62,976 nucleotides of DNA, taken from positions 1 through 62,976 of the forward strand of contig JADFAL010000015.1 of assembly GCA_015665275.1 (NCBI GenBank), given 5' to 3'. The notes beneath the pieces were generated by a model that saw only the letters and a program-made list of their open reading frames with translations, had not been told where the DNA came from and made no database searches. The DNA is from Flavobacteriales bacterium (GTDB lineage: Bacteria > Bacteroidota > Bacteroidia > Flavobacteriales_D > Crocinitomicaceae). Made by a program: the position numbers and the translations under genes. How positions within the stretch are numbered: position 1 is the first letter of the stretch; each line of letters begins with the position of its first letter. This document shows, piece by piece, positions 10,801-25,967 of the stretch.

Positions 10801-12696
10801 ATGCGATATTTCTCCCTTTTGTTGCTGATTTTTGTATTGTTTGCATGCAATAGCGAACCTATTGAGGCTGATAAAAAAAATACCTCCTCCAAAACACAAG
10901 ATCCACACTCTTATGCGAACGTGCACGAAATCCGAACGGAACACCTGCATTTGGAATTAGATGTCAACTTTGACAACCAAACAATTTATGGTGTCGCGAG
11001 ACATACCATGAGCAAACACAAAACGTCCGAGGCTATTTTCGATGTGAAAGGTCTGGAAATTATGAAAGTTACCCTCGGGAAAGAAGGAAAGGAAAAAGCA
11101 ACTGAATACTCCGTAGGTAAAAACGATGAATTGTTGGGCGCTCCTTTGAAGGTGAAAGTTGGTAAAAACGATCGCAACATCAATATTTATTACAAAACAA
11201 CAGAAGCCACAGAAGCTTTGGATTGGTTGCCTCCATCATTAACTGCAGGAAAAGAACACCCATTCCTGTATACGCAAGGACAAGCCATCTTAACCCGATC
11301 TTGGATTCCGCTGCAAGACACTCCCTTGAGCCGTATCACCTACTCTGCCGATATTACAGTTCCTTCAGATTTGATGGCGGTAATGAGCTCAAAAAACCCC
11401 ACGGAACGCAATGATGCTGGAGAATACCATTTTGAAATGAATCAACCGATTCCTGCCTATTTGATTGCAATGGCAGTAGGAAATTTGGAATACGTGTCAC
11501 TTGGAAATAAGTGCGGTGTATACGCAGAACCACAATTGACAGCAAGCGCAGCGTACGAATTTCAGGATGTTCCGAAAATGATGCAAGCTGCAGAAGAATT
11601 GTACGGAGATTATCAGTGGGATCAATACGATATCGTTCTATTGCCTTATTCCTTCCCTTTCGGTGGAATGGAAAATCCGCGACTGACCTTTGCAAACCCA
11701 ACCTTACTTGCAGGAGACCAAAGTCTGGTTTCGGTTATTGCGCATGAATTAGCACACTCATGGTCTGGAAACCTAGTCACCAATGCTACTTGGAATGACT
11801 TCTGGCTCAACGAAGGATTCACTGTTTACTTCGAGAACCGAATCATGGAAAAACTCTACGGCAAAGAAACCGCAGACATTCTCGCATTGATTGAGTTCCA
11901 AGACTTGACCGTTGCTCTTGAAGACATGGCCGCGAGTGAACATCCAGAAGACACACACCTGAAATTAGAATTAGATCACCGCAGCCCTGATGAAGGAATG
12001 ACGGACATTCCTTACGTAAAAGGAGCGTACTTCTTGAGAACCTTGGAACAGAAAGTCGGGAGGCCGAAAATGGATGCATTTCTAGAAAGGTATTTTAGTG
12101 AGTTTGCTTTCAAAACAATTACAACGGCCGATTTCGAAACGTATTTGACGGAAAACTTGTTGAAACCGAATAAGATTCAATTCAATACTAAAGAATGGAT
12201 CTATGAAAACGGACTTCCTGAAAATTGTACTGAAATCACATCGAATCGATTGGATGATATGATTGAAACAGCGCAAGCGTTTAACGCCGTTCCAGCTCAA
12301 AAGCAGAAAATTTCTTCTTTTTTAGTAAAAAAGCGCAGCGACTTTATCACGCAAGAATGGCAAACATTCATCAGAAATTTAGATCACAATCTTGACCCCG
12401 CATTGATGGGGCAACTGGATAAAGCGTTTGAATTTTCAACAAATGCGAATCCAGCAATTAAATCAGACTGGTTCAAGTTGTGCGTTCGCACAGGATACAC
12501 TGCAGCACGCCCTGAAATGAAAGCGTATTTATGCAAGATTGGTCGTAGATGGTTTATTGAGTCGGTTTACCAATGTCTCGTAGATTCAGATACAGAGGGC
12601 GATTACGAATTTGCTTTGGAAGTTTTTGAAGCAGCGAAGAACAACTATCATTATGTTTCGCGCAGCACTATTGAAGCGTTGCTAAAAAAGAACTAA
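10801..12696 (+). CDS. M1 family aminopeptidase, lipoprotein (LTA4 hydrolase-like)
   Basis: A protein of 631 residues. The N-terminus has a lipoprotein signal ending LFACNSE (lipobox Cys about residue 16), so the enzyme is anchored on the periplasmic or outer face. The exopeptidase motif GGMEN is at 288-292. The zinc site H315-E-L-A-H319 is followed 18 residues later by E338 in NEGFTVY, the canonical HEXXH-(X18)-E of M1 gluzincins. The PFGGMENP context and the C-terminal helical region resemble leukotriene A4 hydrolase-type aminopeptidases. It removes N-terminal residues from peptides. It is divergent from the two POT peptide transporters, which fits extracellular trimming followed by uptake. 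Confidence 0.95.
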   Translation: MRYFSLLLLIFVLFACNSEPIEADKKNTSSKTQDPHSYANVHEIRTEHLHLELDVNFDNQTIYGVARHTMSKHKTSEAIFDVKGLEIMKVTLGKEGKEKATEYSVGKNDELLGAPLKVKVGKNDRNINIYYKTTEATEALDWLPPSLTAGKEHPFLYTQGQAILTRSWIPLQDTPLSRITYSADITVPSDLMAVMSSKNPTERNDAGEYHFEMNQPIPAYLIAMAVGNLEYVSLGNKCGVYAEPQLTASAAYEFQDVPKMMQAAEELYGDYQWDQYDIVLLPYSFPFGGMENPRLTFANPTLLAGDQSLVSVIAHELAHSWSGNLVTNATWNDFWLNEGFTVYFENRIMEKLYGKETADILALIEFQDLTVALEDMAASEHPEDTHLKLELDHRSPDEGMTDIPYVKGAYFLRTLEQKVGRPKMDAFLERYFSEFAFKTITTADFETYLTENLLKPNKIQFNTKEWIYENGLPENCTEITSNRLDDMIETAQAFNAVPAQKQKISSFLVKKRSDFITQEWQTFIRNLDHNLDPALMGQLDKAFEFSTNANPAIKSDWFKLCVRTGYTAARPEMKAYLCKIGRRWFIESVYQCLVDSDTEGDYEFALEVFEAAKNNYHYVSRSTIEALLKKN

Positions 12697-12729
12697 TCTC
12701 GGGTTTTACCGCAATTCTCAAGGTAATTT

Positions 12730-12752
12730 ACCGCAAGGAACGCAAAGGGCGC
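12730..12752 (+). repeat. Interspersed repeat copy, 'accgcaaag..cgc' type
   Basis: The segment accgcaaggaacgcaaaggg, followed by cgc, recurs in related form at 13715-13740 (reverse strand) and 58791-58818. Similar strings sit between genes in many Bacteroidota as short interspersed repeats. No coding function is visible. Confidence 0.45.
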
Positions 12753-12914
12753 AATATTTTATTGGTTGAAACTTTTCGCTTTGCTCTAAGTGCTTCTTGA
12801 ATTCCGCGAACTACAATGATTAGAACTTGATCTAGCTAGATTTTCTATACTGTTATCCTAACTCCTTTCCTTACCGATCCTACTTTACTCCATTACCCAC
12901 TTTCAATTGATAAA

Positions 12915-12951
12915 AAACAAAAAAAGGGTAAGATTTCTCCTACCCTTTCCT
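12915..12951 (-). terminator. Terminator after the LURP/tubby-like gene
   Basis: On the minus strand the stem aagggta/taccctt is followed by a long T run (the aaaaaaa on the plus strand at about 12919-12925). Almost the same sequence ends valS at 13828-13860. Confidence 0.8.
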
Positions 12952-12970
12952 AATAAATAGTTTCTCAGGG

Positions 12971-13621
12971 TTATCCTCTGCGGCGTTCCAACAATGACAT
13001 CATCATCAGCGAAAGCAACACGCGCTCTCCTTGTTCTTTATTCAATTCACCTACCTTTTCCAAAGTAAAATGGCGACCAAAGAAAGACGGCTTCTTCTTG
13101 AAACGAATTACAGCCTGCCCATTTGGATCTTCAACTACGTAACGAGGATTTGCAAAATACCCTGTGAGCATGTTAACTACAGGGATTTCACCGAGCAATG
13201 CATCCCATACCTTGGCCCATGGATTCTCCTCTCTAATTGTATACTCGAGGTTATCATCCACATCGAAAACTTCGTAAGTTGCCTTCCAAAGAGACTTACG
13301 TCCTTTTCGCCCGACGCGCCCTGTTGCCGTTTCCGATTCACCAATTGTAAAACGGTAACTGGCATTGTAATCAATCCAGCGATCTGCAGAGATCTTATAC
13401 AGAAGCACAGATTTCGCATCATTGTTATATACGCTCACAGCCTCTTTTAGCTTGAACATTTTTTGTCGGACATAAGCGACCGTTGCACCGTTTGCATCTT
13501 TCGCTACGAAGTCATTCCAAATAGTTCCAATTTTAAAAGTAAACTCCATTGGATAACTCCAGTCTTCCATTGACGCGCCTGCGACAGCGACATTATCCAG
13601 AAGATCATTTTCCTCGCTCAT
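12971..13621 (-). CDS. LURP-one/tubby-C-like beta-barrel protein
   Basis: A protein of 216 residues starting at the ATG at 13621 (MSEENDLLDNV). An open frame extends 48 codons further upstream, but that part overlaps an interspersed repeat and looks non-coding. The body is beta-rich without a signal peptide: FTFKIGTIWNDFVAKDANG, then YVRQKMFKLKEAVSVYND-like and RYVVEDPNGQAVIRFKKKP. This succession (a probe for 'xVYxD...', repeated short strands, a D-x-x-G turn) recalls the tubby C-terminal/LURP-one-related fold, some members of which bind phosphoinositides or act like scramblases. It lies between two near-identical terminators, downstream of valS. The fold assignment is tentative; the gene itself is solid. 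Confidence 0.75.
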   Translation of the reverse strand: MSEENDLLDNVAVAGASMEDWSYPMEFTFKIGTIWNDFVAKDANGATVAYVRQKMFKLKEAVSVYNNDAKSVLLYKISADRWIDYNASYRFTIGESETATGRVGRKGRKSLWKATYEVFDVDDNLEYTIREENPWAKVWDALLGEIPVVNMLTGYFANPRYVVEDPNGQAVIRFKKKPSFFGRHFTLEKVGELNKEQGERVLLSLMMMSLLERRRG

Positions 13622-13714
13622 ATGTGTAGTTTTTAGGTTTTTTTCAATTTCACGGACAAGATAAAAAATTAGAATCAATCTCTTCTCAAACGGAATAAGC
13701 ATACACTGCGCCCC

Positions 13715-13740
13715 TCGTGCTCTTTGTTCCTTTGCGGCAA
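13715..13740 (-). repeat. Interspersed repeat copy (reverse orientation)
   Basis: The reverse complement reads ttgccgcaaaggaacaaaga then gcacg, the same family as 12730-12752 and 58791-58818. It lies in the space between valS and the LURP/tubby-like gene. Confidence 0.4.
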
Positions 13741-13827
13741 AAAAAGACTCTAGACACGTCTGCAAAGCTAAATCCAGTTACTGTGAACTTTGCGCTTCAA
13801 GGACCTCGGTGCTCGTTAGACAGAAAC

Positions 13828-13860
13828 AAAAAAGGGTAAGATCACTCCTACCCTTTCCAG
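13828..13860 (-). terminator. valS terminator
   Basis: The stem aagggta/taccctt, with a T run on the minus strand, lies 19 bp past the valS stop. It matches the 12915-12951 terminator except in the loop. Confidence 0.8.
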
Positions 13861-13878
13861 TATTATTATTCATCGAAA

Positions 13879-16509
13879 CTAATTTAGCGATTCGATCTTC
13901 TCTTCTAAAATGGCGATTTTACTCAGTGCATCTGATTCTTTCTTACGCTCAACATCTACCACTTGGTCTGGAGCGTTGTTTACGAATCGTTCGTTCTGCA
14001 ATTTCTTCTGAACGGACTTCAAGAATCCTTGCGTGTACTCCAACTCTGTTGTGAGCTTTTCACGTTCTGCATCTACATCAATCGCATCGCCAAACGGAAT
14101 GAAGTATTCGTTTCCTCCTACAAGGAAAGAATTTGAATTCTCTACTTTCTCTGAAACATATTCAAATTGCGAAAGGTTCCCCATTTTCACTATTACTGAG
14201 TCAAAATCAGTAGAAAGGTCGTTGTTCTTTTTCACGAACAAATCCATTTTGACTTTGTTGGCGATACCGTTATCTTTTCGAACGCTTCGGATATTCGTAA
14301 TCACCTCCGTAGCCGATGTAAACTGTTTCAATACAGCTGAATCAAAGTCATTTACTTCTGGCCAACTCGCAACAATGATGTCTTCACCTTCATTTCTATC
14401 TCTTAGTTTGTGCCACAAATCCTCAGAAATAAATGGCGTAAACGGATGCGTCAACTTCAACAATTCTTCGAAAAACTCGATTGTTTTGTCCAAAGTCTTG
14501 CGATCAATTGGATGCTGATACCCTGGCTTTACCATTTCAAGGTACCAAGCGCAGAAATCATCCCAAACCAATTTGTAAGTAGCCATCAAGGCCTCTGAGA
14601 TTTTGAAACGATCAAACAAACTGTTGATGTTCTTCAACTCCTCTTGGAAACGTGCCTCAAACCACTCAATTGCTTTAATGGACGATTCTGGTTGTTCCAA
14701 ATCTTCGTTCACGGTCCATGCATCTACCAATCGGTGTGCATTCCACATTTTGTTCGCAAAATTACGTCCCTGTTCACACTGAGATGTATCAAACGGAAGG
14801 TCATTTCCAGCTGGTGAAGAGATCAAAATCCCCAATCGAACACCGTCTGCTCCATACTTATTCATCAATTCAATTGGATCTGGTGAATTCCCCAATTGCT
14901 TCGACATTTTACGCCCCAGTTTATCACGGATAATTCCTGTGAAATAAACGTTCTCAAAAGGCTTTGCGTCTTTGTATTCATATCCGGCCATGATCATGCG
15001 GGCCACCCAAAAGAAAATGATATCCGGTCCGGTTACCAAATCATTGGTAGAATAGTAATAGTTAATCTCCTCGTTGTCTGGGTCGGTCAATCCATTGAAT
15101 ACCGAAATCGGCCATACCCAACTAGAGAACCAAGTATCCATTACGTCTTCATCTTGACGAATATCCGCTGAGGTCAATTCTTTTCCAACCTTTTCAGAGG
15201 CCAATTTCAAAGCTTCCTCCCCTGTCTTGGCAACAACATAGTTTTCTTGGCCTTCACCAATGTACCACGCTGGAATACGATGTCCCCACCACAATTGACG
15301 TGAAATACACCAATCTTTGATATTTTCCATCCAATGGCGATAGGTATTCTTAAACTTCTCTGGATAAAACTTAACCTCGTCATTCTCCACGTTCTCCAAT
15401 GCTGGAGCGGCCAGATCTTTCATATCCACAAACCACTGCGGAGACAATTTCGGCTCAATCACAGCATTTGTTCTTTCGGAATACCCCACCTTATTAATGT
15501 GATCTTCCGTATCGATCAAATAACCTTTGTCGTACAGTTCTTTCTCAATCTCTTTTCGTACCACAAAGCGATCTTTCCCTTCGTAATGCAATCCTTGAGC
15601 GTTCAACGTTCCATTATCATTGAAAATATCGATCGTTTCAAGCTTGTGACGTTGACCAATTTCATAATCATTGGTATCATGCGCAGGCGTTACTTTCAAA
15701 CATCCTGTTCCGAACTCCATGTCTACGTAATCATCCGCAATAATTGGAATTTCGCGATTGGCAATTGGCACAACGGCTTTCTTGCCCACTAGATTGGCGT
15801 AGCGCGCATCATTCGGATTCACACAAATCGCAGAATCTCCCAAAATTGTTTCCGGACGCGTGGTTGCAATGGTTAACCATTGATCTTCCGAATCGGCAAT
15901 TTTATAGCGAACGTGAAACAGCTTCGAATTCACCTCTTTGTGAATTACCTCTTCATCAGAAACGGCAGTCAATGCTTCAGGATCCCAATTTACCATACGA
16001 ACGCCGCGGTAAATCTTTCCTTTGCTATACAAATCAATGAATACATTAATAATTGACTCGGAATACTCTGGATCCATCGTAAAACTTGTACGATCCCAAT
16101 CACAAGAGGCTCCAAGCTTTTTCAACTGCTCCAAAATTATTCCTCCGTGCTTGTCTTTCCATTCAAATGCATGCGCCAAGAACTCATCGCGTGTTAAATC
16201 TGACTTCTTGATTCCTTCTTGACGGAGTTTGTTTACCACTTTCGCCTCTGTAGCGATCGATGCGTGATCTGTCCCCGGTACCCAACATGCATTTTTACCT
16301 TGCATGCGCGCACGGCGTACCAATACATCCTGAATGGTATTGTTCAACATATGTCCCATGTGTAACACACCCGTTACGTTTGGCGGTGGAATGACGACCG
16401 TATATGGTTCACGTTCATCAGGTTTCGAGTGGAAATAACGTTTTTCCATCCAATGCGCGTACCAACGATCTTCCAACTGTTGCGGGGCGTACTTTTCGGT
16501 GTTGTCCAT
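13879..16509 (-). CDS. valS: Valine--tRNA ligase
   Basis: A protein of 876 residues, normal for bacterial ValRS. The class I synthetase motifs are intact: the HIGH counterpart H50-M-G-H53 within [14 protein letters not shown], and the KMSKS counterpart K534-M-S-K-Q. The editing (CP1) domain is present ([17 protein letters not shown]), as are the anticodon-binding region and the C-terminal coiled coil with the usual KLxNExFVxxAPxxVVxxER pattern. It charges tRNA-Val with valine and clears mischarged threonine. It is transcribed alone and closed by its own terminator. The 780 bp upstream is non-coding, rearranged DNA. Confidence 0.98.
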
Positions 16510-16731
16510 GTTACATAAATATTTCCGGCAAAATTAGTAAATCCGGTGGGGATAGCGGTATAAAAAGAATGAGTTTGGAGAAAAAGGTGGTTCTCGAGAA
16601 TTGGTAATCAGTTGACTTGAATAAGCAACCTAGTCGTGATAACCTACAAGACATAAAAGGTGTACAATAACTACCAATATTGGATGTAATGTGCTATTTT
16701 GGTGTAGATATAAGCTAGTTATAGTTAATGA

Positions 16732-16772
16732 CAAGCTTTGCTGAATTCCCACAGCCTGCTATGCAAAGCTTG
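16732..16772. repeat. Perfect 10-bp inverted repeat
   Basis: caagctttgc (16732-16741) and gcaaagcttg (16763-16772) are perfect reverse complements separated by 21 bp. The outer flanks gttaa/ttaac extend the symmetry. No T run follows, so it is not an obvious terminator. Confidence 0.7.
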
Positions 16773-16848
16773 GTTAACCGTCTCCCCCAACCCAGCTGCT
16801 GAATTTGATATCCAAAAGTTGACAATCTGCGTGTTTTTGACTAACTTA

Positions 16849-16882
16849 TATTTACAAGTCAAGTACGACTTGCTTGTAAATA
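16849..16882. repeat. Long near-perfect hairpin, 10+5 bp arms
   Basis: tatttacaag (16849-16858) pairs with cttgtaaata (16873-16882). Inside, caagt (16860-16864) pairs with acttg (16868-16872) around an acg loop. Only the t at 16859 is unpaired. It is a very stable cruciform or RNA hairpin with no T run. Confidence 0.75.
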
Positions 16883-16939
16883 CTAAGGCTAGAAAAACAC
16901 CTGTCGGGGTGTCGCACAAAAGGCTAGGATCTGCGTTGT

Positions 16940-16955
16940 ACTGAGCATGTCGAAG
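16940..16955 (-). repeat. CTTCGAnnnnCTCAGT-type interspersed motif
   Basis: The reverse complement reads cttcgacatgctcagt. Related copies lie at 1986-2000 (minus), 31765-31779, 46185-46200 and 48128-48143, all between genes. Confidence 0.5.
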
Positions 16956-16995
16956 TGACGAACTTGATACGCGCATTGTAGAACTGTCCTTGGGC

Positions 16996-17078
16996 CCCTT
17001 CGACCTAAGTGACTTTAAAAATTGGAGCTGTTTGAGCGTAGCGAGTTCTTCAATTTTAAGTCAGGTGGTCTTGAAGGG
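16996..17078. repeat. 83-bp imperfect palindromic element
   Basis: The outer arms cccttcgac (16996-17004) and gtcttgaaggg (17068-17078), and the inner arms gactttaaaaattg and caattttaagtc, are imperfect reverse complements around a gagcgtagcgag centre. The layout fits a REP/MITE-like element. No protein is encoded. Confidence 0.5.
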
Positions 17079-17179
17079 TAAGGTTATTCTACTGGCGCGA
17101 GGGCTTTTTTGCTTACTTTTTTAGCTCATGAAAAAAGTATGATACTTAGCAGCATGGCTCGGAGCAGTGGTTAAGACTA

Positions 17180-17263
17180 ACTATAACAGCACCTCACAAA
17201 TCAAGCCGCAAAAGTGTTATATTCGAGAAGCGGCTCGCTTCGTAGCTGCCAAACGTTATGTGC
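17180..17263 (+). repeat. attC-like palindromic element A
   Basis: An imperfect palindrome beginning ctataacagcacc and ending gctgccaaacgttatgtgc (17245-17263), with a central stem agccgc/gcggct. The outer boxes ATAAC and GTTATGTGC are arranged like the R''/R' core sites of integron attC sites (RYYYAAC...GTTRRRY), with one departure from consensus in each core. A lipoprotein gene starts 29 bp downstream. The alternative is a MITE with inverted ends. Confidence 0.45.
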
Positions 17264-17291
17264 AATTACATACAGAATTTTTATCTTCACA

Positions 17292-17717
17292 ATGAAAACA
17301 AAAACTAAAAACATGTACAGATTCCTTTCATTTCTTCTAGTAAGTTTATTCATCGCTTCTTGCAGTTCAACCGACGACAACACAACTGATGATAAACAAA
17401 AAGAACAAGTTCAAAAAGAAGAGCAAACTTCATCAGAATTTAAAATTGTTGGTAAATGGATTTTATATGAAGATTTTGATACAAAAGGTCTAAGCGATGA
17501 AAAGGGCACCTTTATATTCCAGGATAATGGAGAAGTTATTATGGTAAAGGACGTCAAAAACCAAAAGAAGGGTAAATATGAGTTTAGCCAAGAATTCAAG
17601 ACTCTGTCAATAGAAGGTGAGATGGTGGATATCGAAATTGAAGACAACAATAATGTTTTACTCAAAGGGAAGCATAGTAGTGGTAACAAATTCGTTTCTA
17701 AATTGGTGCGCCAATAA
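17292..17717 (+). CDS. Small lipocalin-like lipoprotein
   Basis: A protein of 141 residues from the ATG at 17292 (MKTKTKNMYRFLSF). The longer frame from 17214 runs through the attC-like element and is rejected. A lipoprotein signal ends IASCSST (lipobox Cys about residue 24), followed by a charged Asp/Lys/Gln linker. The globular part starts IVGKWILYEDFD, then TFIFQDNGEVIMV, GKYEFSQEFKTLSIEG and VLLKGKHSSGNKFVSKLVRQ. That is the GxW...F.xxG...Y.....L pattern of Bacteroidota lipocalin-like lipoproteins of unknown ligand. It lies between attC-like elements A and B and has its own terminator, like a gene cassette. Confidence 0.82.
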   Translation: MKTKTKNMYRFLSFLLVSLFIASCSSTDDNTTDDKQKEQVQKEEQTSSEFKIVGKWILYEDFDTKGLSDEKGTFIFQDNGEVIMVKDVKNQKKGKYEFSQEFKTLSIEGEMVDIEIEDNNNVLLKGKHSSGNKFVSKLVRQ

Positions 17718-17737
17718 TGGAAAATAAAAATTCAACT

Positions 17738-17766
17738 AAGCCCTTCAGAAATGAGGGGCTTTTTTG
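17738..17766 (+). terminator. Terminator after lipocalin-like gene
   Basis: aagccc (17739-17744) pairs with gggctt (17756-17761), followed by tttttt. It lies 22 bp after the stop codon. Confidence 0.8.
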
Positions 17767-17768
17767 AT

Positions 17769-17866
17769 GCACATAACAGCACCTATACTCCACCGCCGTT
17801 TCTATTTCAGCGAATTCAATTATATTTAAAGATGCGGCGTTAGCATAGTTGCGAACCGTTATGTGC
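17769..17866 (+). repeat. attC-like palindromic element B
   Basis: The 98-bp element has exactly complementary 9-bp ends, GCACATAAC (17769-17777) and GTTATGTGC (17858-17866). The left inner box agcacc, right inner box gttgcgaacc and central stem ccgccg/cggcg give the multi-box palindrome expected of an attC site. It has the same orientation as elements A, C and E, judged by the extra 4-5 bases before the right GTTAT box. Confidence 0.5.
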
Positions 17867-17985
17867 AATGGACGTGTTTCGCATATGTAACGGATACAAA
17901 AACCATTTATCATGGCTTAGTCAAAACAACATTCGAATTAGCTCTCCAAAATTCTGGAGGCAAATCGATAATAACTCATAGGAGC

Positions 17986-19257
17986 TTATTCAAAATATGA
18001 CAGCAAAAACTTTTCGTCAAATATTGGATAGTTCAGTTGTTTAGCTATTCCAAGATATTCGTTCTTTAACTCTTTGTTTTTCTTTGATGAATTATAATAC
18101 AAGGCAATAACATAGAAAAGATTGAAAAAGTCATAATAACTATTAACCCATAACTCAGGTTTTATTTTTGTAAGCAGATCAATCTGTTTTTTCTCATCTT
18201 TTCGACTAATGTAGAACAATAGATCAGTCAAGCAACTGACTTGATAGTGAGATATATGATAATACTCCTGAATATGCGTTTCTTTGTGAGCCGATCTCAA
18301 CCATCCCATAAGTTCGAAATCTGCAAGTGTAATTGCAATGATATGTACTTCATAGAAATAGTCAATTCGTCTTATTTTTTCAGATCTATAACGATCCATC
18401 AACTTATCAAAAACGCCTCTTTTTTCTTTTGGCTGATAACGATATTTCAACAGTTCAATTGATGCAATTCTACCAATCAGTATTGGATGAGCGTCAAATG
18501 TTGTAAAATCACAATTAGATTTAATACTTATATCTTTCAACAAGAGTAGTTCGCGAAAATAGCCTAAGCACTTAAAAAACTGATTTTCATTTTCCCGAAA
18601 AATTTCGTTGTGCTTTTTTGCCAAGACTACGACAGTACCGTATCCTTTATTCAAACTAGTATAGTCAACAAAAATTAAAAATACATTCCTTACAAAGCAC
18701 TTGTTATTCAATAAAAATATACAATCTTCATCTCTTAAATTAATGTCACGAAGCAACATCCCAATAGCATTCCCGATATAAATTGATTCTGAATAACTTA
18801 ATTCATCCAGTTTCAATTCAGGACATCTGTATACTTTATCAACCGTATCAATTTTGCCAAAAAGTAACAACTCCCGAACTCCTTTAATAAAGAAATTAAT
18901 GAATGATACATTCTTCCTTCGCTTTTTCACGAAATATAAAATGATCTGTTCTGATTTACCAGAATGAAAGATTGAATACCATTCCTCCTGGAACTCACTA
19001 ACACCAACACTAGAAACTTTTTTACAAAATCCATAGTACGATTCATATCCTAAAAACCTAGAAAGAACATTTAGCGTATTGATACTAGGCACAACTTCAG
19101 AGCCCTTTTCAACTCCAAAAAATCTCCGAATCGTATTATAATTGATGGTCTCACCGAACTCAACCAAAATAGCATCTGACAGGAACTGACACTCTCCTCT
19201 GTGTTTTATGCTAACCCCTAACTTCTGCTCTATCTCGGATTGTAAAATTTCGATCAT
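17986..19257 (-). CDS. Putative regulator with Bacteroidota HTH-like N-terminal domain
   Basis: A protein of 423 residues. Residues 1-85 show a pattern common in Bacteroidota regulators: a helix, then GECQFLSDAILVEFGETINYNTIRRFFG, then PSINTLNVLSRFLGYESYYGF. Such domains are thought to bind DNA. The remaining 340 residues are helical with no signal peptide and no recognised domain; they could form helical repeats that act as a sensor. The gene is AT-rich relative to the core genes. It diverges from a small lipoprotein gene, and the shared 107 bp contain four exact 11-bp repeats, suggesting that the protein or a partner binds there and controls itself and the lipoprotein. The function is inferred only. 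Confidence 0.7.
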   Translation of the reverse strand: MIEILQSEIEQKLGVSIKHRGECQFLSDAILVEFGETINYNTIRRFFGVEKGSEVVPSINTLNVLSRFLGYESYYGFCKKVSSVGVSEFQEEWYSIFHSGKSEQIILYFVKKRRKNVSFINFFIKGVRELLLFGKIDTVDKVYRCPELKLDELSYSESIYIGNAIGMLLRDINLRDEDCIFLLNNKCFVRNVFLIFVDYTSLNKGYGTVVVLAKKHNEIFRENENQFFKCLGYFRELLLLKDISIKSNCDFTTFDAHPILIGRIASIELLKYRYQPKEKRGVFDKLMDRYRSEKIRRIDYFYEVHIIAITLADFELMGWLRSAHKETHIQEYYHISHYQVSCLTDLLFYISRKDEKKQIDLLTKIKPELWVNSYYDFFNLFYVIALYYNSSKKNKELKNEYLGIAKQLNYPIFDEKFLLSYFE

Positions 19258-19268
19258 CTATTTTAGAT

Positions 19269-19320
19269 ATGTATCATGAATGTATCATGAATGTATCATG
19301 AATGTATCATGAATGTATCA
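19269..19320. promoter_or_regulatory. 11-bp tandem repeat array, candidate operator
   Basis: Four exact copies of ATGTATCATGA (19269-19312) plus an 8-bp partial fifth copy. The period equals about one helical turn and each unit contains the palindrome TCATGA. The array starts 12 bp upstream of the start codon of the minus-strand putative regulator and 45 bp upstream of the lipoprotein ATG. It could be an operator array or a slippage-prone repeat that varies promoter spacing. Confidence 0.55.
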
Positions 19321-19364
19321 AATATTAATCATCTTATAGAGATCTTTGATAAAAATATGAAAAT

Positions 19365-19793
19365 ATGAAAAAACAAAACTTACTTATCCTTTCAGGAATT
19401 ATTGCGATGACCTTAGCTTCATGCGGAGGATCAACGGAAACTGAAGCACAAGATAGTCTTGACGACCTTATGGAGAATTACGAGGAAAACTTGGAGGAAA
19501 CTGACGCATCTACACAAGAAGATGAAGTAGAGATTGCCGATGATTCTTCCCCTTCTGATGAATGGAATGAGACATTGGACGACTATGAGGAATACGTCGA
19601 CAACTATGTATCGCTCATCAAAAAACAAAAAGCAGACCCAACCGATATGTCAATAATGACCGAGTACCAAGAATTGATGCAAAAAGGAACTAAATGGTCG
19701 ACAAAAATGTCAGAAATGTCCTCAGATTTTGGACCTGAGCAATTATCAAGAATGCAAAAAATTCAATCAAAGCTTTCAAAAGCGGCATTGTAA
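19365..19793 (+). CDS. Small acidic lipoprotein, DUF6591-like
   Basis: A protein of 142 residues with a lipoprotein signal ending LASCGGS (lipobox Cys about residue 20). A very acidic spacer (residues 25-65) is followed by a helical domain: DDYEEYVDNYVSLIKKQK, then MSIMTEYQELMQKGTKWSTKM, and a C-terminal KIQSKLSKAAL. The pattern matches the DUF6591 type of Bacteroidota lipoproteins; the function is unknown. The gene has its own perfect terminator. It diverges from the putative regulator over the 11-bp repeat array and lies between attC-like elements B and C. Confidence 0.82.
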   Translation: MKKQNLLILSGIIAMTLASCGGSTETEAQDSLDDLMENYEENLEETDASTQEDEVEIADDSSPSDEWNETLDDYEEYVDNYVSLIKKQKADPTDMSIMTEYQELMQKGTKWSTKMSEMSSDFGPEQLSRMQKIQSKLSKAAL

Positions 19794-19811
19794 ATTCACA
19801 ACGTTTAGATT

Positions 19812-19840
19812 AAAAGAGGGGGCTAGCGCCCTCTTTTTTT
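19812..19840 (+). terminator. Terminator after DUF6591-like gene
   Basis: aaaagaggg (19812-19820) pairs with ccctctttt (19829-19837), followed by further T. It could work in both directions. Confidence 0.88.
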
Positions 19841-19875
19841 GTTTAAGCTACAATGTTGTGACTATTCGATAATAC

Positions 19876-20009
19876 GCACATAACACAAGCTAAATTTCAG
19901 CGCCACTGCTGGCTTCGAGAGTTTTTCGTTTCTTTTAAGGAAAAAAGTTCCTACACTTGAAACCGGTCTGGGAAAGCGCCGAAACATAGCTTTGTCCGTC
20001 GTTATGGGT
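19876..20009 (+). repeat. attC-like palindromic element C
   Basis: A 134-bp imperfect palindrome. The left end is GCACATAAC (19876-19884), followed by acaagctaaatttcagcgcc. The right side ends gttatgggt (20001-20009), and its reverse complement contains acaaagctatgtttcggcgc. The two arms align almost end to end around a variable central loop. The downstream gene's ATG begins at 20011, two bases after the element, the way many integron cassettes start. Confidence 0.5.
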
Positions 20010-20010
20010 A

Positions 20011-20547
20011 ATGAAAAGCATAACAAAAAAACTATTAATCGTCGGATGTCTGTTATGGGCAAATGCCTCTTTCTCATGCAGCTGCGGTGAGGAAGGTAGT
20101 GTTGAAGAATCCTTTGCGGGAGCTGACATTGTAATCCACGGAACTGCTGTGCAGCGATCAGACACAACTATTAAGGAAACTTTGAATCCGAATTTAGGAG
20201 ATTCTTTAGAAGAACTAGTTTCAATTAGAGATAAGGACTTACTAAATTCTGAGCTGGCTACTAAGATTCAAGTTCAAGTGAATAAAATTTACAACGGAAA
20301 AGTAATATCTGACACTGTTAAAGTTTATACTGCTCAACAGTCTTCAGCATTTGGTTATACCCAATTTAAAATTGGAGAAGAGTACATTATATATGGAGAT
20401 AAAGAAAGTTACTTTTCTTCAATGATGTTATATGAAAAAATTGCTGATTCAGAAAAGAATGGGACCTTTTGGACTAATCAATGTACCAGAACAACCAGCT
20501 ATAACGAACTAGAAGCGAATCAGCTAGATCGATTAGCGAAGAATTAA
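20011..20547 (+). CDS. Secreted TIMP/netrin-like (NTR) protein
   Basis: A protein of 178 residues with a signal peptide ending ANASFS. The mature protein begins C23-S-C25-G, the N-terminal Cys-x-Cys hallmark of tissue-inhibitor-of-metalloproteinase-like domains. It continues ADIVIHGTAV, then VQVNKIYNGKVISDTVKVYTA, FKIGEEYIIYG, and a late Cys in NQCTRTTSY that could pair with the N-terminal cysteines. Bacterial members are secreted and of unknown role; protease inhibition is a guess from the fold. The start codon directly abuts attC-like element C and the gene is followed by element D, so the unit has the form of a single-gene cassette. Confidence 0.78.
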   Translation: MKSITKKLLIVGCLLWANASFSCSCGEEGSVEESFAGADIVIHGTAVQRSDTTIKETLNPNLGDSLEELVSIRDKDLLNSELATKIQVQVNKIYNGKVISDTVKVYTAQQSSAFGYTQFKIGEEYIIYGDKESYFSSMMLYEKIADSEKNGTFWTNQCTRTTSYNELEANQLDRLAKN

Positions 20548-20550
20548 TAC

Positions 20551-20634
20551 CTTTAACATCGCCTCATGCTTCATGCCTTTTATTCCCTATATTCGAGAGG
20601 CGGCACGAAAGCGTAGCACAAACCCTTTATGTAT
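20551..20634 (+). repeat. attC-like palindromic element D (degenerate)
   Basis: The left box ctttaacatcgcc (20551-20563) and right box acaaaccctttatgtat flank arms catgcttcatgcc and (reverse complement) tacgctttcgtgcc. The outer box has drifted from GTTATGTGC to TTTATGTAT. It lies just behind the TIMP-like gene. It is less convincing than B or C. Confidence 0.35.
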
Positions 20635-20639
20635 AATTT

Positions 20640-21392
20640 GAAAAAAATCACGTGCACGGAATCAGCTAAAAAAAGTGATTCACCATGTCTAATTGGTGCT
20701 AAACGTAAAAAGTGACGGTTCTTTCCAAACGCTGTCAGCGCACCTACAGATCTCGATGATTCAATGAAAAAGGGAATTGACGCTTACAAGAAAACAATCC
20801 GTGAATTTCAGAATATTCACGTTGAAAACCACCTGGACAGTGCATTATAAGTTAATTAAATGCTCAGAACAACAGACTTGGAGATGGGATAGGCCCTACG
20901 AACTTTGTCATCGACCAACTGACAAATATGGATGGAAAACGGAACCTTACAACTTATCGAAACCGCAAACACTTCGTCTAAAGTCTACATGTTTGGAGAT
21001 TGACAAATCAGAGTAGTCTGACATTGATCTAATCCGACTAGTTTATGAAAAAAATGAGACAATTTCGTGGAGTTGTCTCGCTAGTTCATTCTGTCAAATA
21101 GAAGATTCTGTGCTAAAAAATGTTAATTATCCACTTTTAGGAATTCAACAATAAACTACCATTCTATTGCTTTTTGGCTCGACGAATGCCCATTGAATTT
21201 GCCCCACTTGTATCTAGCGTGCGACGGGCTTAAATTGATCGAAAGTGAAAGACAAGAACAATTCGTTATTTATGAAAAACGGAGCCGACTGGATTGAAAG
21301 CGTAGATGCTTTTTTGTTTAATAAAAATTATAATAGATTAAACATATTTAACTATTTGTTGTTAACTTCAAACAAACTTAAAAATTTTAGTT
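20640..21392 (+). other. Gene remnants and leader upstream of proteorhodopsin
   Basis: No intact gene. Two short protein-like stretches survive in different frames. At 20764-20850 the frame reads MKKGIDAYKKTIREFQNI and then HVENHLDSAL before a stop. A frame ending at 20981 reads GDGIGPTNFVIDQLTNMDGK and then RNLTTYRNRKHFV before a stop. Both look like pieces of a decayed gene or genes. From about 21300 the DNA becomes very AT-rich (ttaataaaaattataataga), as expected for the proteorhodopsin promoter and leader. No exact Bacteroidota -7/-33 pair could be fixed by eye. Confidence 0.45.
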
Positions 21393-22139
21393 ATGTCTGA
21401 TGTTCTTATTATTCCGCCAGATGATGCGGTAGCTTTTACCTTCTTTACGGGTTACATGGCAATGCTGGCAGCTTCCATTTTCTTTATTTTTGAGCGAGGT
21501 CGTGTCGCAGAAAAATGGAAACTGTCCCTATTGGTATCCGCACTTATTACATTCATCGCAGCAGTGCATTATTACTACATGCGAGACTATTACTTGGCCA
21601 CGGGTGAAAACCCAACGGCACTCAGGTACATTGATTGGACACTCACGGTTCCTTTGATGTGTGTTGAGTTCTTCCTGCTCACCAAGGCCGCTGGGGCAAA
21701 GCTTGGTCTTCTCTGGAAACTGATTCTCGCTTCGGTGTGGATGCTAGTCGCAGGATATATCGGCGAAGCGTTTAATCCTGAAGGTGGTGATTCAACGCAC
21801 TCTTTCTTGTGGGGCTTCTTGTCAACGCTTGGATATCTTTACATTTTGTGGACCGCATGGTTTGGAGAAGTGGCAAAACTCGCTGCATCCAGCAATGACC
21901 CTGTGGTCAAGAGAGGCGTAAGAACACTCGCTTGGTTTGTACTCGTGGGATGGGCGATCTATCCAATTGGATACATGTGTATGCCAGGAGGATGGTTAAA
22001 CACTGCCTTCGGATGGGGGTCTGAAAACGTAGACTTGTTCTACAATATAGCAGATGCCATCAATAAAATTGGATTCGGATTGGTTGTTTACAACATTGCT
22101 GTGACTTCCAAAACTAAGGGCGAGACTAAAACCGCTTAG
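21393..22139 (+). CDS. Proteorhodopsin, light-driven proton pump
   Basis: A protein of 248 residues with seven predicted helices. The key residues are in place. Helix C reads RYI-D81-WTL-T85-VPL-M89-CV-E92, so it has the DTE motif of a proton pump (proton acceptor D81, donor E92). Helix G reads ADAIN-K225-IGFG, the lysine that binds retinal as a Schiff base. H59 matches the histidine that pairs with the acceptor in proteorhodopsins. The tuning position (105 in the reference green pigment) is M89, which is typical of flavobacterial green-absorbing forms. It moves protons outward across the inner membrane in light. It is followed by blh, with a strong hairpin between. Confidence 0.97.
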   Translation: MSDVLIIPPDDAVAFTFFTGYMAMLAASIFFIFERGRVAEKWKLSLLVSALITFIAAVHYYYMRDYYLATGENPTALRYIDWTLTVPLMCVEFFLLTKAAGAKLGLLWKLILASVWMLVAGYIGEAFNPEGGDSTHSFLWGFLSTLGYLYILWTAWFGEVAKLAASSNDPVVKRGVRTLAWFVLVGWAIYPIGYMCMPGGWLNTAFGWGSENVDLFYNIADAINKIGFGLVVYNIAVTSKTKGETKTA

Positions 22140-22161
22140 TAATTATTCCAGTGAAATTTCT

Positions 22162-22190
22162 CCCCGCGTCAAGTGACGCGGGGTTAATTT
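22162..22190 (+). terminator. Strong hairpin between proteorhodopsin and blh (attenuator candidate)
   Basis: ccccgcgtc (22162-22170) and gacgcgggg (22175-22183) form a perfect 9-bp GC-rich stem with an aagt loop, followed by a weak T tract (ttaattt). It lies 22 bp after the proteorhodopsin stop and 13 bp before the blh ATG. It may terminate most transcripts and let some through, or protect the 3' end of the rhodopsin mRNA. Confidence 0.8.
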
Positions 22191-22196
22191 GCCTTC

Positions 22197-23138
22197 ATGA
22201 CCAGGACCATTTTCATATTCATAGCGACCCTTTTCTTATTCGCTCCAGCCATCATTCTCTACGAAAGTTTACCCAACTTAGAGAGTCAATTACTGTTAGT
22301 TGGACCGATACTTTTGATTTTAGGAATCCCACATGGCGCTATAGATCATGTCCTGTATCAACGTAGTCAGACGATCAGTAATTTTCGCTTTATTGCCACT
22401 TACCTCTCGATCGTTTTGACCATTCTTGTTCTTTGGTGGATTTTTCCAATAATCACATACATCCTCTTTCTCGGCACTTCTGCATATCACTTTGGTCAAT
22501 CTCAGTTTTCCCATTATTTTAAAAAGCAAAATATGCGAACGAGACTGCTTTTTATGAGTTGGGGGACCTTACTCTTATCCACTTTGATGTTGTTCAATTC
22601 AGCAGAACTTGATAGCCTCGCTAGGGACTATTCTGAGTTTGGATCCATTCATGTGTTGAACTCCACGCTCCTACTCTATTTGGTCGTCATTAGTGGATTA
22701 TTTACAGTGTCCCTCATTTTCATAATGATCGCTCGGAATGAATTACTGAAACCACATGCATTGATGGAGCTGGTTGTTGCCTTTATGCTATTGGTGAGTT
22801 TTTACCTGCTGCCGTTTCTCATCGGGTTCACTTTGTATTTCATTATTCTTCACGCCTGGAAGGTGATGCAAGAAGAGTTTGGCTTCCTGAAGAAGTCAGG
22901 AGTAGTGAAAAACCCAATCGATTTTATCAAGATTCTAAGTCCATTTTCAATCGTTTCATTCATGGGAATTGGACTCGTATACACAGCCATTTACAATCAA
23001 TGGTTGAACATTTCTTTCGGATACGCTCTACTCATCGTGATATCAGCAATTACCATTCCGCATGCCTTTGTGATGGATCAATTTTATGGATTACTCTTCA
23101 AACGAAAGTTCTATCAGAACGAACAAGTAATTGATTAA
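22197..23138 (+). CDS. blh: Beta-carotene 15,15'-dioxygenase, Brp/Blh family
   Basis: A protein of 313 residues, nearly all membrane-embedded. The conserved histidines of the Brp/Blh family are visible: GIP-H46-GAID-H51, SAY-H98-FGQ, L-H219-AWKV and TIP-H289-AFVMD. They should bind the iron that cleaves beta-carotene into two retinal molecules. The product is the chromophore for the proteorhodopsin encoded 58 bp upstream on the same strand. No carotenoid synthesis genes (crtE, B, I, Y) lie in the window, so beta-carotene must be made from another locus. The ATG at 22197 comes directly after the intergenic hairpin. Confidence 0.94.
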   Translation: MTRTIFIFIATLFLFAPAIILYESLPNLESQLLLVGPILLILGIPHGAIDHVLYQRSQTISNFRFIATYLSIVLTILVLWWIFPIITYILFLGTSAYHFGQSQFSHYFKKQNMRTRLLFMSWGTLLLSTLMLFNSAELDSLARDYSEFGSIHVLNSTLLLYLVVISGLFTVSLIFIMIARNELLKPHALMELVVAFMLLVSFYLLPFLIGFTLYFIILHAWKVMQEEFGFLKKSGVVKNPIDFIKILSPFSIVSFMGIGLVYTAIYNQWLNISFGYALLIVISAITIPHAFVMDQFYGLLFKRKFYQNEQVID

Positions 23139-23990
23139 ACTAAAAATGAAGTCAGATATCTGAATCATTCAAGCCTCTGCTGCTTCAACATGAATCACGG
23201 CGGTTTTCTACCATTTTATTCCTCCCATTGCTGATACATTTCAACTCATTCGTGCTCATAAATAGTCTTATTTCGCTTTACTGATGTTACCAAAAAAACA
23301 GCCATTCCTCGATTTTCGATAGATCAATCAAATAATTGTTCATGTGAAAGCCTGATTTAACGTCGACTTATGCACGCTGAGAAACCGAAAGTATAAGTGA
23401 TCTCTGGCGATTAGGTGCTTTTGTACGCGATTTCCTCTTTAAAGTTTAGAATACCTTTTCGGAGGTTACTAGTCCTAGAATAGCTCTTATTGCATCTTGA
23501 AATAAAGCCTATCTCTGACTAGATAGAAATCAACGTTGGATAGCGAAAGAAAAAAATGTAGATCACCTGAAAGAGATCTGTTTTTTCAATTTAGTATCTT
23601 AGTAACAACAACCAAGTATCGGAAACTAAAACCGCCTTTGACAAAAAAAACCGCAAAAGACAAGTGTAATCCCGATAGCTATCTGGGGAACACATAAGTT
23701 GACACTTTTGTTCACTTGCTTTTAATCGTTCGCGCACATCGTTTGACAACCATTGCGCACGTACTCGGTTTGTTTTTGAATACAGGTGGTTGTGTGGGTA
23801 TGGTGTTTTCTGACTGATTCGTACGCAAGGTATACGCTAGCGCTCCCCCCTTGTTCGACTTGGTTGACAGAAAACCTGTTGTTTATGTTGCGGTTCACCT
23901 AGAATTGACATTCGACATTCCAATTTTTGCTTGGTGGTCGGGCAAATTTTGGTGCTTACATCCAGTTTTGACTTGGTTGTGAAAATGTTT
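23139..23990. other. Long intergenic stretch without recognisable genes
   Basis: The 850 bp behind blh hold no convincing open frame on either strand. There are scattered T-rich and A-rich tracts (for example gacaaaaaaaaccgcaaaag near 23639), and stop codons in all frames. It may be decayed cassette DNA preceding attC-like element E. Confidence 0.5.
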
Positions 23991-24127
23991 GCGCATAACA
24001 GCAGTTGCACTTCATGTGGTCAATTACTTCGAATTGATAAATTGTGTGTTAACAAATCAATCCTTAACTTTGAGAGAACTATTTTGGTAGCAATCCGCAC
24101 GTTGCGTAGCTGCCAGCCGTTATCCAC
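23991..24127 (+). repeat. attC-like palindromic element E
   Basis: A 137-bp imperfect palindrome. The left end is GCGCATAACAGCAGTTGCAC. The right end gtagctgccagccgttatcc has a reverse complement containing GGATAACGGCTGGCAGC, and further in gcaacgtgcgg matches the left ttgcac part. It has the same orientation as A-C, with extra bases before the right GTTAT box. It separates blh and its trailing non-coding DNA from the amidohydrolase gene. Confidence 0.45.
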
Positions 24128-24203
24128 TTCTCACATCTCTAATAAGACTCTTTATTGAGCCATTCATTCCTTCTCATTACCTTCGTAGGACAAATCTGTA
24201 CTT

Positions 24204-25967
24204 ATGAAAGCGTTTTTATCCATCCTCTTATTAGCTCTTCTTACTCTCTCTTCCTGCATGAAAGGTGAAGATGTTGATCTTATCATACACAATGCTAGAA
24301 TCCATACCATGGTGGATGGAGACGATAAGGTATATGATGCCATTGCAATCAAGGATGGAAAGATAGTGGAAATTGGCCCTGAACGTCAAATTCTCAATAA
24401 ATACAGCGCAAAAGAGTACGTTGATGCAGAAAAGAAAGATGTGTACCCTGGTTGGGTCGACGCACACGGTCATATGATGAACTACGCGCGGTCTCGAATA
24501 AGCGTGGATTTGATCGGCTGTAAATCGTTTGATGAAATGATTTTGAGGATCGAGAAATACCAAAGCAAGTACAAACGTCCATTTATCATTGGCCGCGGTT
24601 GGGACCAGAGTTTGTGGGGAGACGAAATGCCTACCAACGAGAAATTGAACGAGATGTTTCCAGACATCCCGGTTTGTCTATTCAGAATAGACGGTCATGC
24701 ACTACTTGCAAACGATTACCTAATTCAGAAAGCGAATATCTTTAAGGCGTATCGAAAAGATTCTGAACTACACAATGGCGGCCACTATGAATCAAATGAT
24801 GGTCCAGTAGAGTTGGCTGACCTAGTAAAGAAGTTGGATGGTATTTACACCATAAAGCCAGTTAAATCTCTTAAAATTGAACGATCTATTGATGTGCCTG
24901 CACTTGCAGCCGAAATTGCCAAGCCAACAGGAGTTTTTGTCGATAATGCCATGAATCCCATTTTGGCCATACTGCCAGACTTCCCGCAAAATGAATTGGC
25001 AGCATCGCTCATGGAAGTTCAAAACGAGTTGTTGATGTATGGAATTACAGGCGTTCACGAAGCTGGATTGAACGACAAGGACTTCAAACTTTTCCGACGT
25101 ATGGTCGATAAGCGCAAACTGAAGTTGAACATCTACGCCATGTTACTCACCACTCCTGAGAATGTGAAATTTGCCAAGGATAAGGGATTCTGGAGAAATA
25201 AGAACTTGTATGTGCGAAGCTTTAAAGTATACGGAGACGGCGCATTGGGATCACGCGGTGCCTTTCTGAAACACCCTTATTCAGATAGACACGATCATTC
25301 TGGCTATATGACCACTTCCCCAGAACGCATGAAGGAAATCTATGATCTTTGCATGTTGACGGGCTATCAGATGAACACGCATGCCATTGGTGATTCCACG
25401 AATAAAATCATGTTAGACATGTATGCCGATATGTTTGAATTGAATCCAGATCACAGGTGGCGCATTGAGCATGCGCAAATTGTAGATCCCGCAGATTTCA
25501 ATCTATTCGCTAAATCCGGTGCAATTCCGAGTGTACAGCCGACACACGCCACAAGTGATCAACGCTGGGCAGAAGCACGACTGGGTGAAGACCGTATGGA
25601 AGGCGCTTATGCCTTTAAATCACTGATGAATCAATCTGGATTACTCGCCATTGGGACTGACTTCCCCGTTGAATATACCGATCCGTTCAAAACAATTCAC
25701 TCTGCGGTAGAACGCAAAAACGGTGAGAATTTCCCTTCGGAAGGATTCCGCGCTGAAGAAGCAATTACGTTGGATGAATGTATTTTAGGAATGACGCGTT
25801 GGGCGGCATTTGCCTCCTTCCAAGAAGACAAGATGGGAACTTTGGAAAAAGGAAAAGACGCAACGATCAGTATGTTCCAAAATCCAGTTGTTTCAAAATC
25901 TACGTTCCAATCCAACTTTGCCGAACTGGTTCTAATAAAAGGAAAAAAGGTTTATTCTGCTGAATAA
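24204..25967 (+). CDS. Amidohydrolase family lipoprotein (YtcJ-like)
   Basis: A protein of 587 residues with a lipoprotein signal ending LSSCMKG (lipobox Cys about residue 18). The amidohydrolase features are clear: the N-terminal composite barrel DLIIHNARIHTM, the first metal motif GWVDAHGHM, a middle TGVHEAG, histidines in QMNTHAIGDS and RIEHAQI, the late Asp in AIGTDFPVEY, and the C-terminal strand GTLEKGKDATISMF. This order matches amidohydrolase family 3 (YtcJ-like), metal-dependent hydrolases of amide or related bonds with unknown substrate here. Its length of nearly 590 is usual for the group. It is probably transcribed alone; the last codons form part of a terminator hairpin. Confidence 0.92.
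   Translation: MKAFLSILLLALLTLSSCMKGEDVDLIIHNARIHTMVDGDDKVYDAIAIKDGKIVEIGPERQILNKYSAKEYVDAEKKDVYPGWVDAHGHMMNYARSRISVDLIGCKSFDEMILRIEKYQSKYKRPFIIGRGWDQSLWGDEMPTNEKLNEMFPDIPVCLFRIDGHALLANDYLIQKANIFKAYRKDSELHNGGHYESNDGPVELADLVKKLDGIYTIKPVKSLKIERSIDVPALAAEIAKPTGVFVDNAMNPILAILPDFPQNELAASLMEVQNELLMYGITGVHEAGLNDKDFKLFRRMVDKRKLKLNIYAMLLTTPENVKFAKDKGFWRNKNLYVRSFKVYGDGALGSRGAFLKHPYSDRHDHSGYMTTSPERMKEIYDLCMLTGYQMNTHAIGDSTNKIMLDMYADMFELNPDHRWRIEHAQIVDPADFNLFAKSGAIPSVQPTHATSDQRWAEARLGEDRMEGAYAFKSLMNQSGLLAIGTDFPVEYTDPFKTIHSAVERKNGENFPSEGFRAEEAITLDECILGMTRWAAFASFQEDKMGTLEKGKDATISMFQNPVVSKSTFQSNFAELVLIKGKKVYSAE

Follow-up and report, generated by a model that had tools for sequence, protein, structure and literature searches.

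How gene cassettes come to stand in series at a locus that encodes no integrase is the question raised by a stretch of 62,976 nucleotides (the window), which is contig 19 of the 3.64-Mb draft genome of a Flavobacteriales bacterium. A reading of this DNA made from the letters alone (the sequence-only reading) had described five attC-like palindromes, A to E, as an integron-like cassette region, and all five lie in the 7.7 kb between valS (13879-16509, minus strand) and an amidohydrolase gene (24204-25967, plus strand). Our analysis makes it very probable that the region is an integron-type platform in the chromosome that has no integrase of its own, and on which a recombinase lacking the I2 insertion of IntI would likely act in trans. 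Four findings support the cassette organisation proposed by the sequence-only reading: the register of the site cores, the presence of an attI-type site, cargo that varies at an otherwise conserved locus, and an array adjoining an integrase gene elsewhere in the genome.

In integrons, which shuffle resistance genes, the cut lies in GTT, so that a cassette brings in the bases that follow GTT, and these complement its own left core. The same register, in which the right core of one site pairs with the left core of the next as in IntI integrons, was observed here. Two links in the window, from the attI-type site to A and from B to C, show this: the left core is exactly complementary, in reverse, to the right core of the site before it and not to that of its own site. 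At A, R'' (AACTATAAC, 17179-17187) complements GTTATAGTT at 16718-16726 in reverse at 9/9 (by eye), and the right core of A itself differs. R'' of C is the reverse complement of R' of B at 9/9, and agrees with its own R' (GTTATGGGT) at 4/6 variable bases. The cores of cassette 1 match at 9/9 with A and equally with B's own right core, and this cassette is therefore uninformative alone; R'' of D (ACCTTTAAC) agrees with R' of C at 4/6 variable bases (by eye).

Two further arrays of the genome behave in the same way. On contig 44, where an array follows an integrase gene, sites G, J, I and H all have left cores that exactly complement the right core of the preceding site, and so does a left core truncated at the start of the contig (by eye). 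The array of contig 82 has two exact links in succession by computation and a third read by eye.

Cassette register and layout at the valS locus

The register suggests that cassettes entered singly at the attI-type site beside valS, TATAARYWAG^TTR, where a cut next to GTT would join a circular cassette to the chromosome. Bases after GTT would travel with the incoming cassette and hence pair with that cassette's own left core. The array is laid out as follows.

16709..16726, plus strand: attI-type site, TATAAGCTAG^TTATAGTT; the array begins here, some 200 bp away from the valS start
16719..17255, plus strand: cassette 0, without a convincing gene; bounded by the attI-type site and A
17179..17263, plus strand: site A; R'' 17179-17187, R' 17255-17263
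17256..17858, plus strand: cassette 1, with a small lipoprotein-like gene (17292-17717); bordered by A and B
17769..17866, plus strand: site B; exact pattern match, strongest fold z-score
17859..20001, plus strand: cassette 2, with a 423-aa gene (17986-19257, minus strand) and a lipoprotein-like gene (19365-19793; DUF6591, Pfam)
19876..20009, plus strand: site C; stem score 23, register match to B, not called by the covariance model
20002..20626, plus strand: cassette 3, with a 178-aa gene (20011-20547)
20549..20634, plus strand: site D, decayed; right core TTTATGTAT in place of GTTNNNNNN, A-like arm, no fold
20627..24119, plus strand: D-E segment, with proteorhodopsin (21393-22139) and a blh-like gene (22197-23138)
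23991..24127, plus strand: site E, last site; arms like A and B, conserved amidohydrolase-side sequence next

A, B, C and E share one orientation and the ends that had been described. Within the window, only B fits the pattern GCACATAAC-N60-90-GTTATGTGC exactly, and 100 shuffles produced no such element. Folded as bottom-strand DNA, A (z -2.4) and B (z -3.7) are clearly better than shuffled sequences; C (z -1.1), D (z -0.2) and E (z -0.9) show no clear gain. A covariance model (CM) called A at 56 bits, B at 92 bits and E at 61 bits, and since all three are among the eight sites from which it was built, their recovery is no independent test. The right arm of E resembles that of A (78% over 32 nt) and its left arm that of B (76% over 25 nt). 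The arms of D are A-like (90% over 20 nt), but it has TTT in place of GTT in the right core and does not fold, so we regard it as a decayed site. Among the five palindromes, then, A, B and C are attC-type sites, E is one more weakly, and D is degenerate.

AAC...GTT cores in an imperfect palindrome, as in IntI-type integrons, were found at every site except D. The sequence-only reading had called the region a CALIN, a cluster of attC sites lacking an integrase. Four intact-core sites (the usual demand being at least two) stand in the window with no neighbouring integrase, and a TIGR02249 search of the contig gave no match. To this extent the name fits, but the attI-type start beside valS makes the region an integrase-less platform and not a plain attC cluster. 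The attI-type motif (TATAARYWAGTTR) has a single match in the window and none in 100 shuffles, and is also found after integrase genes elsewhere. At gathering scores, Rfam detected two tRNAs in the window and nothing else.

The locus is conserved in the genus. valS and the amidohydrolase gene share a contig in 26 of 34 same-genus genomes, own included, and in 23 of the 25 relatives concerned the gap between match ends is only 85-252 bp. Longer gaps were found in G008 (2.4 kb), G020 (2.9 kb) and the source genome (7.7 kb). In G020 the gap holds an attI-type site beside valS, a single cassette whose gene looks TPR-like by eye, and one site, to which A is 87% identical over 76 nt. G025 has the attI-type site, other neighbouring genes and one weak model match (E-value 0.35), and homology to G020 and G025 resumes at 24162-24163, ahead of the amidohydrolase gene. 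The G008 insertion (L083) gave no match to the site model, implying that this spot accepts other insertions too; it carries a long gene that is AAA-ATPase-like by eye. We conclude that the valS locus is an attI platform with variable cargo, present in the source genome without its own integrase.

The window array may instead be a fossil, formed as a cassette array and no longer mobile, an explanation that we consider somewhat less than even in likelihood. It would account for the missing integrase in cis, the decay of D, the lack of a gene in cassette 0 and the weak folds of C and E. However, the usual catalytic residues are all present in an integrase that the genome encodes, A and B have remained intact, and G020 carries a different cassette after an attI-type site at the corresponding locus. 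In our view the window array may still be mobile.

The proteorhodopsin-blh pair had been listed among the cassettes, and this part of the sequence-only reading was not borne out. The pair is flanked by the decayed D and by E, for whose R'' the window, G020, G017 and G012 yielded no exact 5' partner. The best partners of the left core of E (8/9) are at A, at B and at 20052, none of which adjoins the pair; two matches in G026 look like chance. Proteorhodopsin occurs in 9 of the 34 genus genomes, own included. The site model gave no match at four other proteorhodopsin loci of the genus, and in the close relative G020 a proteorhodopsin 88% identical (L089) is on a contig other than that of valS. 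Proteorhodopsin-blh is a patchy, relocating pair in the genus, and we do not claim it as a cassette.

Two observations concern cassette content. Tandem 11-bp units (ATGTATCATGA) occupy 19258-19332 between the divergent genes of cassette 2 and may act as operator repeats for the 423-aa protein. One cassette of the source genome encodes a type IX secretion domain (Pfam), which together with the nearest named integrases points to a Bacteroidota host.

The integrase of contig 44 and the hairpins of its sites

A search for an IntI-type recombinase in the genome had been proposed. No protein of the draft genome exceeded the TIGR02249 cut-off, and what was found is a related enzyme without I2: the best match, on contig 44 (9122-9988), is a tyrosine recombinase of 288 aa, which scores 221.3 bits with NF040815 (XerA-like; cut-off 220) and 209.8 with integrase_gron (cut-off 265). 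R, K, H, R, H and Y, usually listed as the catalytic residues of tyrosine recombinases, are invariant in 19 aligned integrase sequences. Directly behind the integrase stop codon stands TATAAACAAG^TTATGTGA, followed by a first cassette closed by site F (8/9, by eye) and then by G, J, I and H; the five sites and the integrase gene have the same direction. An attI-type site thus adjoins an integrase gene on contig 44, and that of the window has none. The enzyme acting on the valS array would most likely be this one, working in trans.

The spacing between KDR and HTLRH is 52-57 residues in the Bacteroidota cassette integrases (the truncated row L155 left aside) versus 94 in all 12 proteins above the curated IntI cut-off. 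It is 56 and 60 in the Xer-like proteins of the source genome and 60 in L173, a Bacteroidota protein that groups with Xer. Nine alignment rows have a spacing of 94-95 and are hence labelled IntI. The same stretch is also skipped in an alignment against 2A3V, and the contig 44 family lacks the IntI-specific insertion near patch III. In a 68-row tree, the nine IntI rows formed one clade (100/100), four Xer-like rows fell outside (100/98), and the cassette integrases were placed with IntI, yet not within the IntI clade. The family thus does not group with housekeeping XerC/XerD, as far as four Xer-like rows represent these; the tree program warned of long branches. Two short rows (L142 and a recombinase of contig 69) were left out of the alignment and L155 out of the tree. 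Judged from its sequence, the contig 44 candidate is not IntI.

The sites of this family also differ from those of IntI. We compared 57 sites of the present system with 31 IntI sites drawn from sister classes (six loci), using the same detector and threshold. Sites of the present system are 59-142 bp long. The right spacer is longer than the left in 57/57, the five window sites included, which agrees with the extra bases before the right GTT noted earlier; medians are 5/1 here and 6/2 in same-phylum IntI sites. L''-side bulges of one or two bases were found in 6/57 sites (one each, none with more) versus 29/31 IntI sites with at least one, and symmetric mismatches in 34/57 versus 7/31. Means per locus are 1.7-3 bulges in six IntI loci and 0-1 in 24 groups of the present system. 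These figures are subject to selection, as many of the 57 were picked with a stem threshold and sites of one locus are not independent. Five initially omitted sites (L112, L117, L122, L158 and the second of L108, doubtful or outside Bacteroidota) bring the count to 7/62. Zero bulges were scored for three of the 57 whose arms lack a single outer stem (E, one of G054 and one of L111). The IntI set was reduced from 35 to 31 by removing two false sites (GTC before the core being required) and, by hand, two duplicate readings; before this cut, a looser count gave 32/35 IntI sites versus 16/57 here. The attC-like character of the sites is therefore upheld for the cores and imperfect palindrome (D excepted) and not for the extrahelical bases of the folded bottom strand.

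The cores had been said to depart by one base from the consensus, perhaps as a variant specific to Bacteroidota. This does not distinguish the present system: GTTATAC, GTTATGC and GTTATGT occur as cores in the true IntI integrons of the phylum as well.

Passages of PMC7790495 describe I2 as docking extrahelical bases, so that the joint absence of both makes mechanical sense to us. The arrays of this enzyme family bear hairpin sites devoid of such bases, and recombination there would proceed without them. Alternatively, the palindromes may be used as ordinary double-stranded sites, with normal two-strand exchange and little role for hairpins, which we think unlikely but worth keeping in view. 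Neither the I2 helix nor extrahelical bases are present, and I2 is described in the same passages as impeding a second exchange on folded sites. On the other hand, the two arms of a site pair with each other much more strongly than arms taken from different sites do (stem score 26.8 versus 12.6, part of the sites having been selected by stem threshold), and the spacer asymmetry in 57/57 sites suggests strand choice on a folded strand. A folded bottom-strand substrate is thus the form that we prefer.

It is improbable that the region is a canonical CALIN whose cassettes were moved by a true IntI from elsewhere. Register and GTT core are the same as in IntI arrays, but the draft genome has no IntI above the cut-off, and such enzymes were found in 105/395 genomes sampled across the phylum and in 1/295 of the window's class (class and phylum being groups of the collection used for genome sampling). 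The sites also lack extrahelical bases, and the site model found no match among 12 IntI loci at E-values up to 1.

Recurrence in other genomes

We searched 99 genomes with the contig 44 integrase, all of which have some tyrosine recombinase; for integrase loci with named records, the best 80 from a species-level collection were kept. A walk from the integrase stop covered 56 loci whose sequence extends 800 bases or more past it. A hairpin-bearing exact first link turned up in 24 of them; 7 gave two links and 5 gave three or more. When the six variable letters were permuted in three ways, one link was obtained in 4, 4 and 1 loci and two links in none (0, 0, 0). The longest exact chains were as follows.

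Flavobacteriaceae bacterium S0862: 5
Bacteroidetes bacterium GWF2_41_31: 5
Sphingobacteriales MAG (metagenome-assembled genome): 4
Seonamhaeicola aphaedonensis: 4
Flavobacterium aciduliphilum: 3

A genome scored 0 in this walk (G027) has a first site with a stem score of 16.5, the threshold being 18. Outside Bacteroidota, a Spirochaetota MAG (L122) has an insertion-less integrase and one exact link, which is either a true case beyond the phylum or a binning error.

The register was also assessed in 15 successive CM-called pairs at eight loci: 12 agree at 6/6 variable bases, 2 at 5/6 and 1 at 1/6. The last involves a site whose right core reads GCT, and one of the 5/6 pairs (B to E) joins sites that are not truly adjacent, the model having missed C and D between them. 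Agreement with the own core, as read by script, is 0-6 variable bases with a median of 3, counts that are affected by a misread right core in two sites (H and one in G030). True IntI integrons (12 loci above the cut-off) served as a positive control, run without shuffles, and showed the same register: clear chains were seen in five, with two links in L197, and the remaining loci gave few or no links. Nine contigs labelled IntI by insertion length (L152-L174) were tried as a positive control and dropped, as they gave one link in total. A naive link detector applied to 22 loci produced 15, 5, 11, 3 and 1 links in five shuffles; the results above therefore rest on the adjacency test and on the walk, the latter with permuted controls.

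At E-values up to 0.01, the site model matched 65/199 genomes of the order and 0/40 genomes outside Bacteroidota by record title. In the source genome the CM gave 12 matches, eight of them its building sites; of the four new ones, three belong to the contig 82 array and the fourth is weak. That the palindromes are a MITE (miniature inverted-repeat transposable element) or other dispersed family, as the sequence-only reading had left open, is hardly credible in spite of their imperfect terminal inverted repeats, because cores match the neighbour and not themselves, a relation that MITEs do not show, arrays follow integrase genes, and in place of genome-wide dispersal the 12 matches in 3.64 Mb cluster in arrays (one weak exception; 150/439 candidates scored).

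A comparison of two plasmids, one from Chryseobacterium sp. SNU WT5 and one from C. oryzae, gave an alignment of 1190 bp at 95.8% identity that spans the integrase gene. The alignment stops at CATATAAACAAGTT, the attI GTT, and different genes lie beyond on each; an exact chain from attI was found on the SNU WT5 plasmid and none on that of C. oryzae. On a Chryseobacterium plasmid (NZ_CP041688, L186), the array includes, at 12000-16490, genes of an IS110-family element and of a group II intron; past each of them the sequence resumes in a seemingly attC-like arm. Such placement is known from classical integrons. A second attI type, ending TATCCAATTGTTG or similar, was noted behind integrases of another branch (L103, L110, L111, L117).

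An attI-type motif was seen directly behind the integrase stop in 14/20 loci (by eye); several of the contigs read in this way break off shortly past the integrase gene. Several results weigh against an integron-type platform served in trans, or against the wider family. The motif was not seen by eye in 5/20 of these loci (G078, G066, G020, G012, G007) and is changed in one (G002), and as a 13-mer it is unspecific genome-wide (5 matches, and 4 for the reversed pattern). No exact chain was found in 32/56 integrase loci, 15 of them outside Bacteroidota by record title. A few of the 24 positive loci may be chance, given 1-4 in controls, and the contig 44 locus itself scores 0 in the exact walk, its first link being 8/9. 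In the window, C and D were missed by the CM and D is dead, and the array and its candidate integrase sit on different contigs. We nevertheless lean towards a separate integron branch, widespread in one Bacteroidota class, that misses both the I2 helix and the extrahelical bases of attC.

Relation to known integrons

The present system shares with IntI integrons a GTT core, the cassette register, an attI beside the integrase gene, hairpin sites and a longer spacer before the right core. In contrast, its integrase lacks the I2 or additional domain and reads in the cassette direction, and its sites have no extrahelical bases and more frequent symmetric mismatches. It is built like an integron but lacks two features that define IntI integrons, and is therefore separate from that family. 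A passage of PMC8138268 states that the insertion, although not fully conserved in an integron-like subgroup, is essential to integron function. Reverse-orientation integrons of spirochaetes likewise have an integrase oriented as the array, but passages of PMC9668308 call their enzymes IntI, and by this description they are set apart. XerA, XerC and XerD also have no I2 insertion, and the best curated model of the present integrase is the XerA-like NF040815; however, two Xer-like proteins of the same genome and two others lie across the 100/98 branch, and it is the present integrase gene that attI and cassette arrays follow.

One integron survey, according to passages of PMC2426708, picked integrases by the IntI additional domain, a rule that passes over the present system. 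Passages on IntegronFinder 2.0 (PMC9024848) report complete integrons in Chlorobi and Ignavibacteriae and a single one, in Salinibacter ruber, in Bacteroidetes proper, where only integrases without cassettes had been known before. Bacteroidota is among the phyla listed with integrons in part of a review (PMC8618304). In open-access literature (subscription journals and preprints being outside coverage), no description of such a system was found. A likeness, by description, is seen in homology-free gene uptake by the flavobacterium Riemerella anatipestifer, in which a 140-bp 3' flank folds like attC. Passages of PMC13148043 suggest a site-specific mechanism, not yet elucidated, and name no integrase.

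If true, a separate branch of this kind would mean that cassette capture on folded sites needs no I2, and it would offer a mechanism for the homology-free gene uptake reported in flavobacteria. The branch may be ancestral to IntI integrons or parallel to them. Integrases without I2 beside sites without bulges would make the origin of integrons directly testable and would add a large unexplored pool of mobile cassettes.

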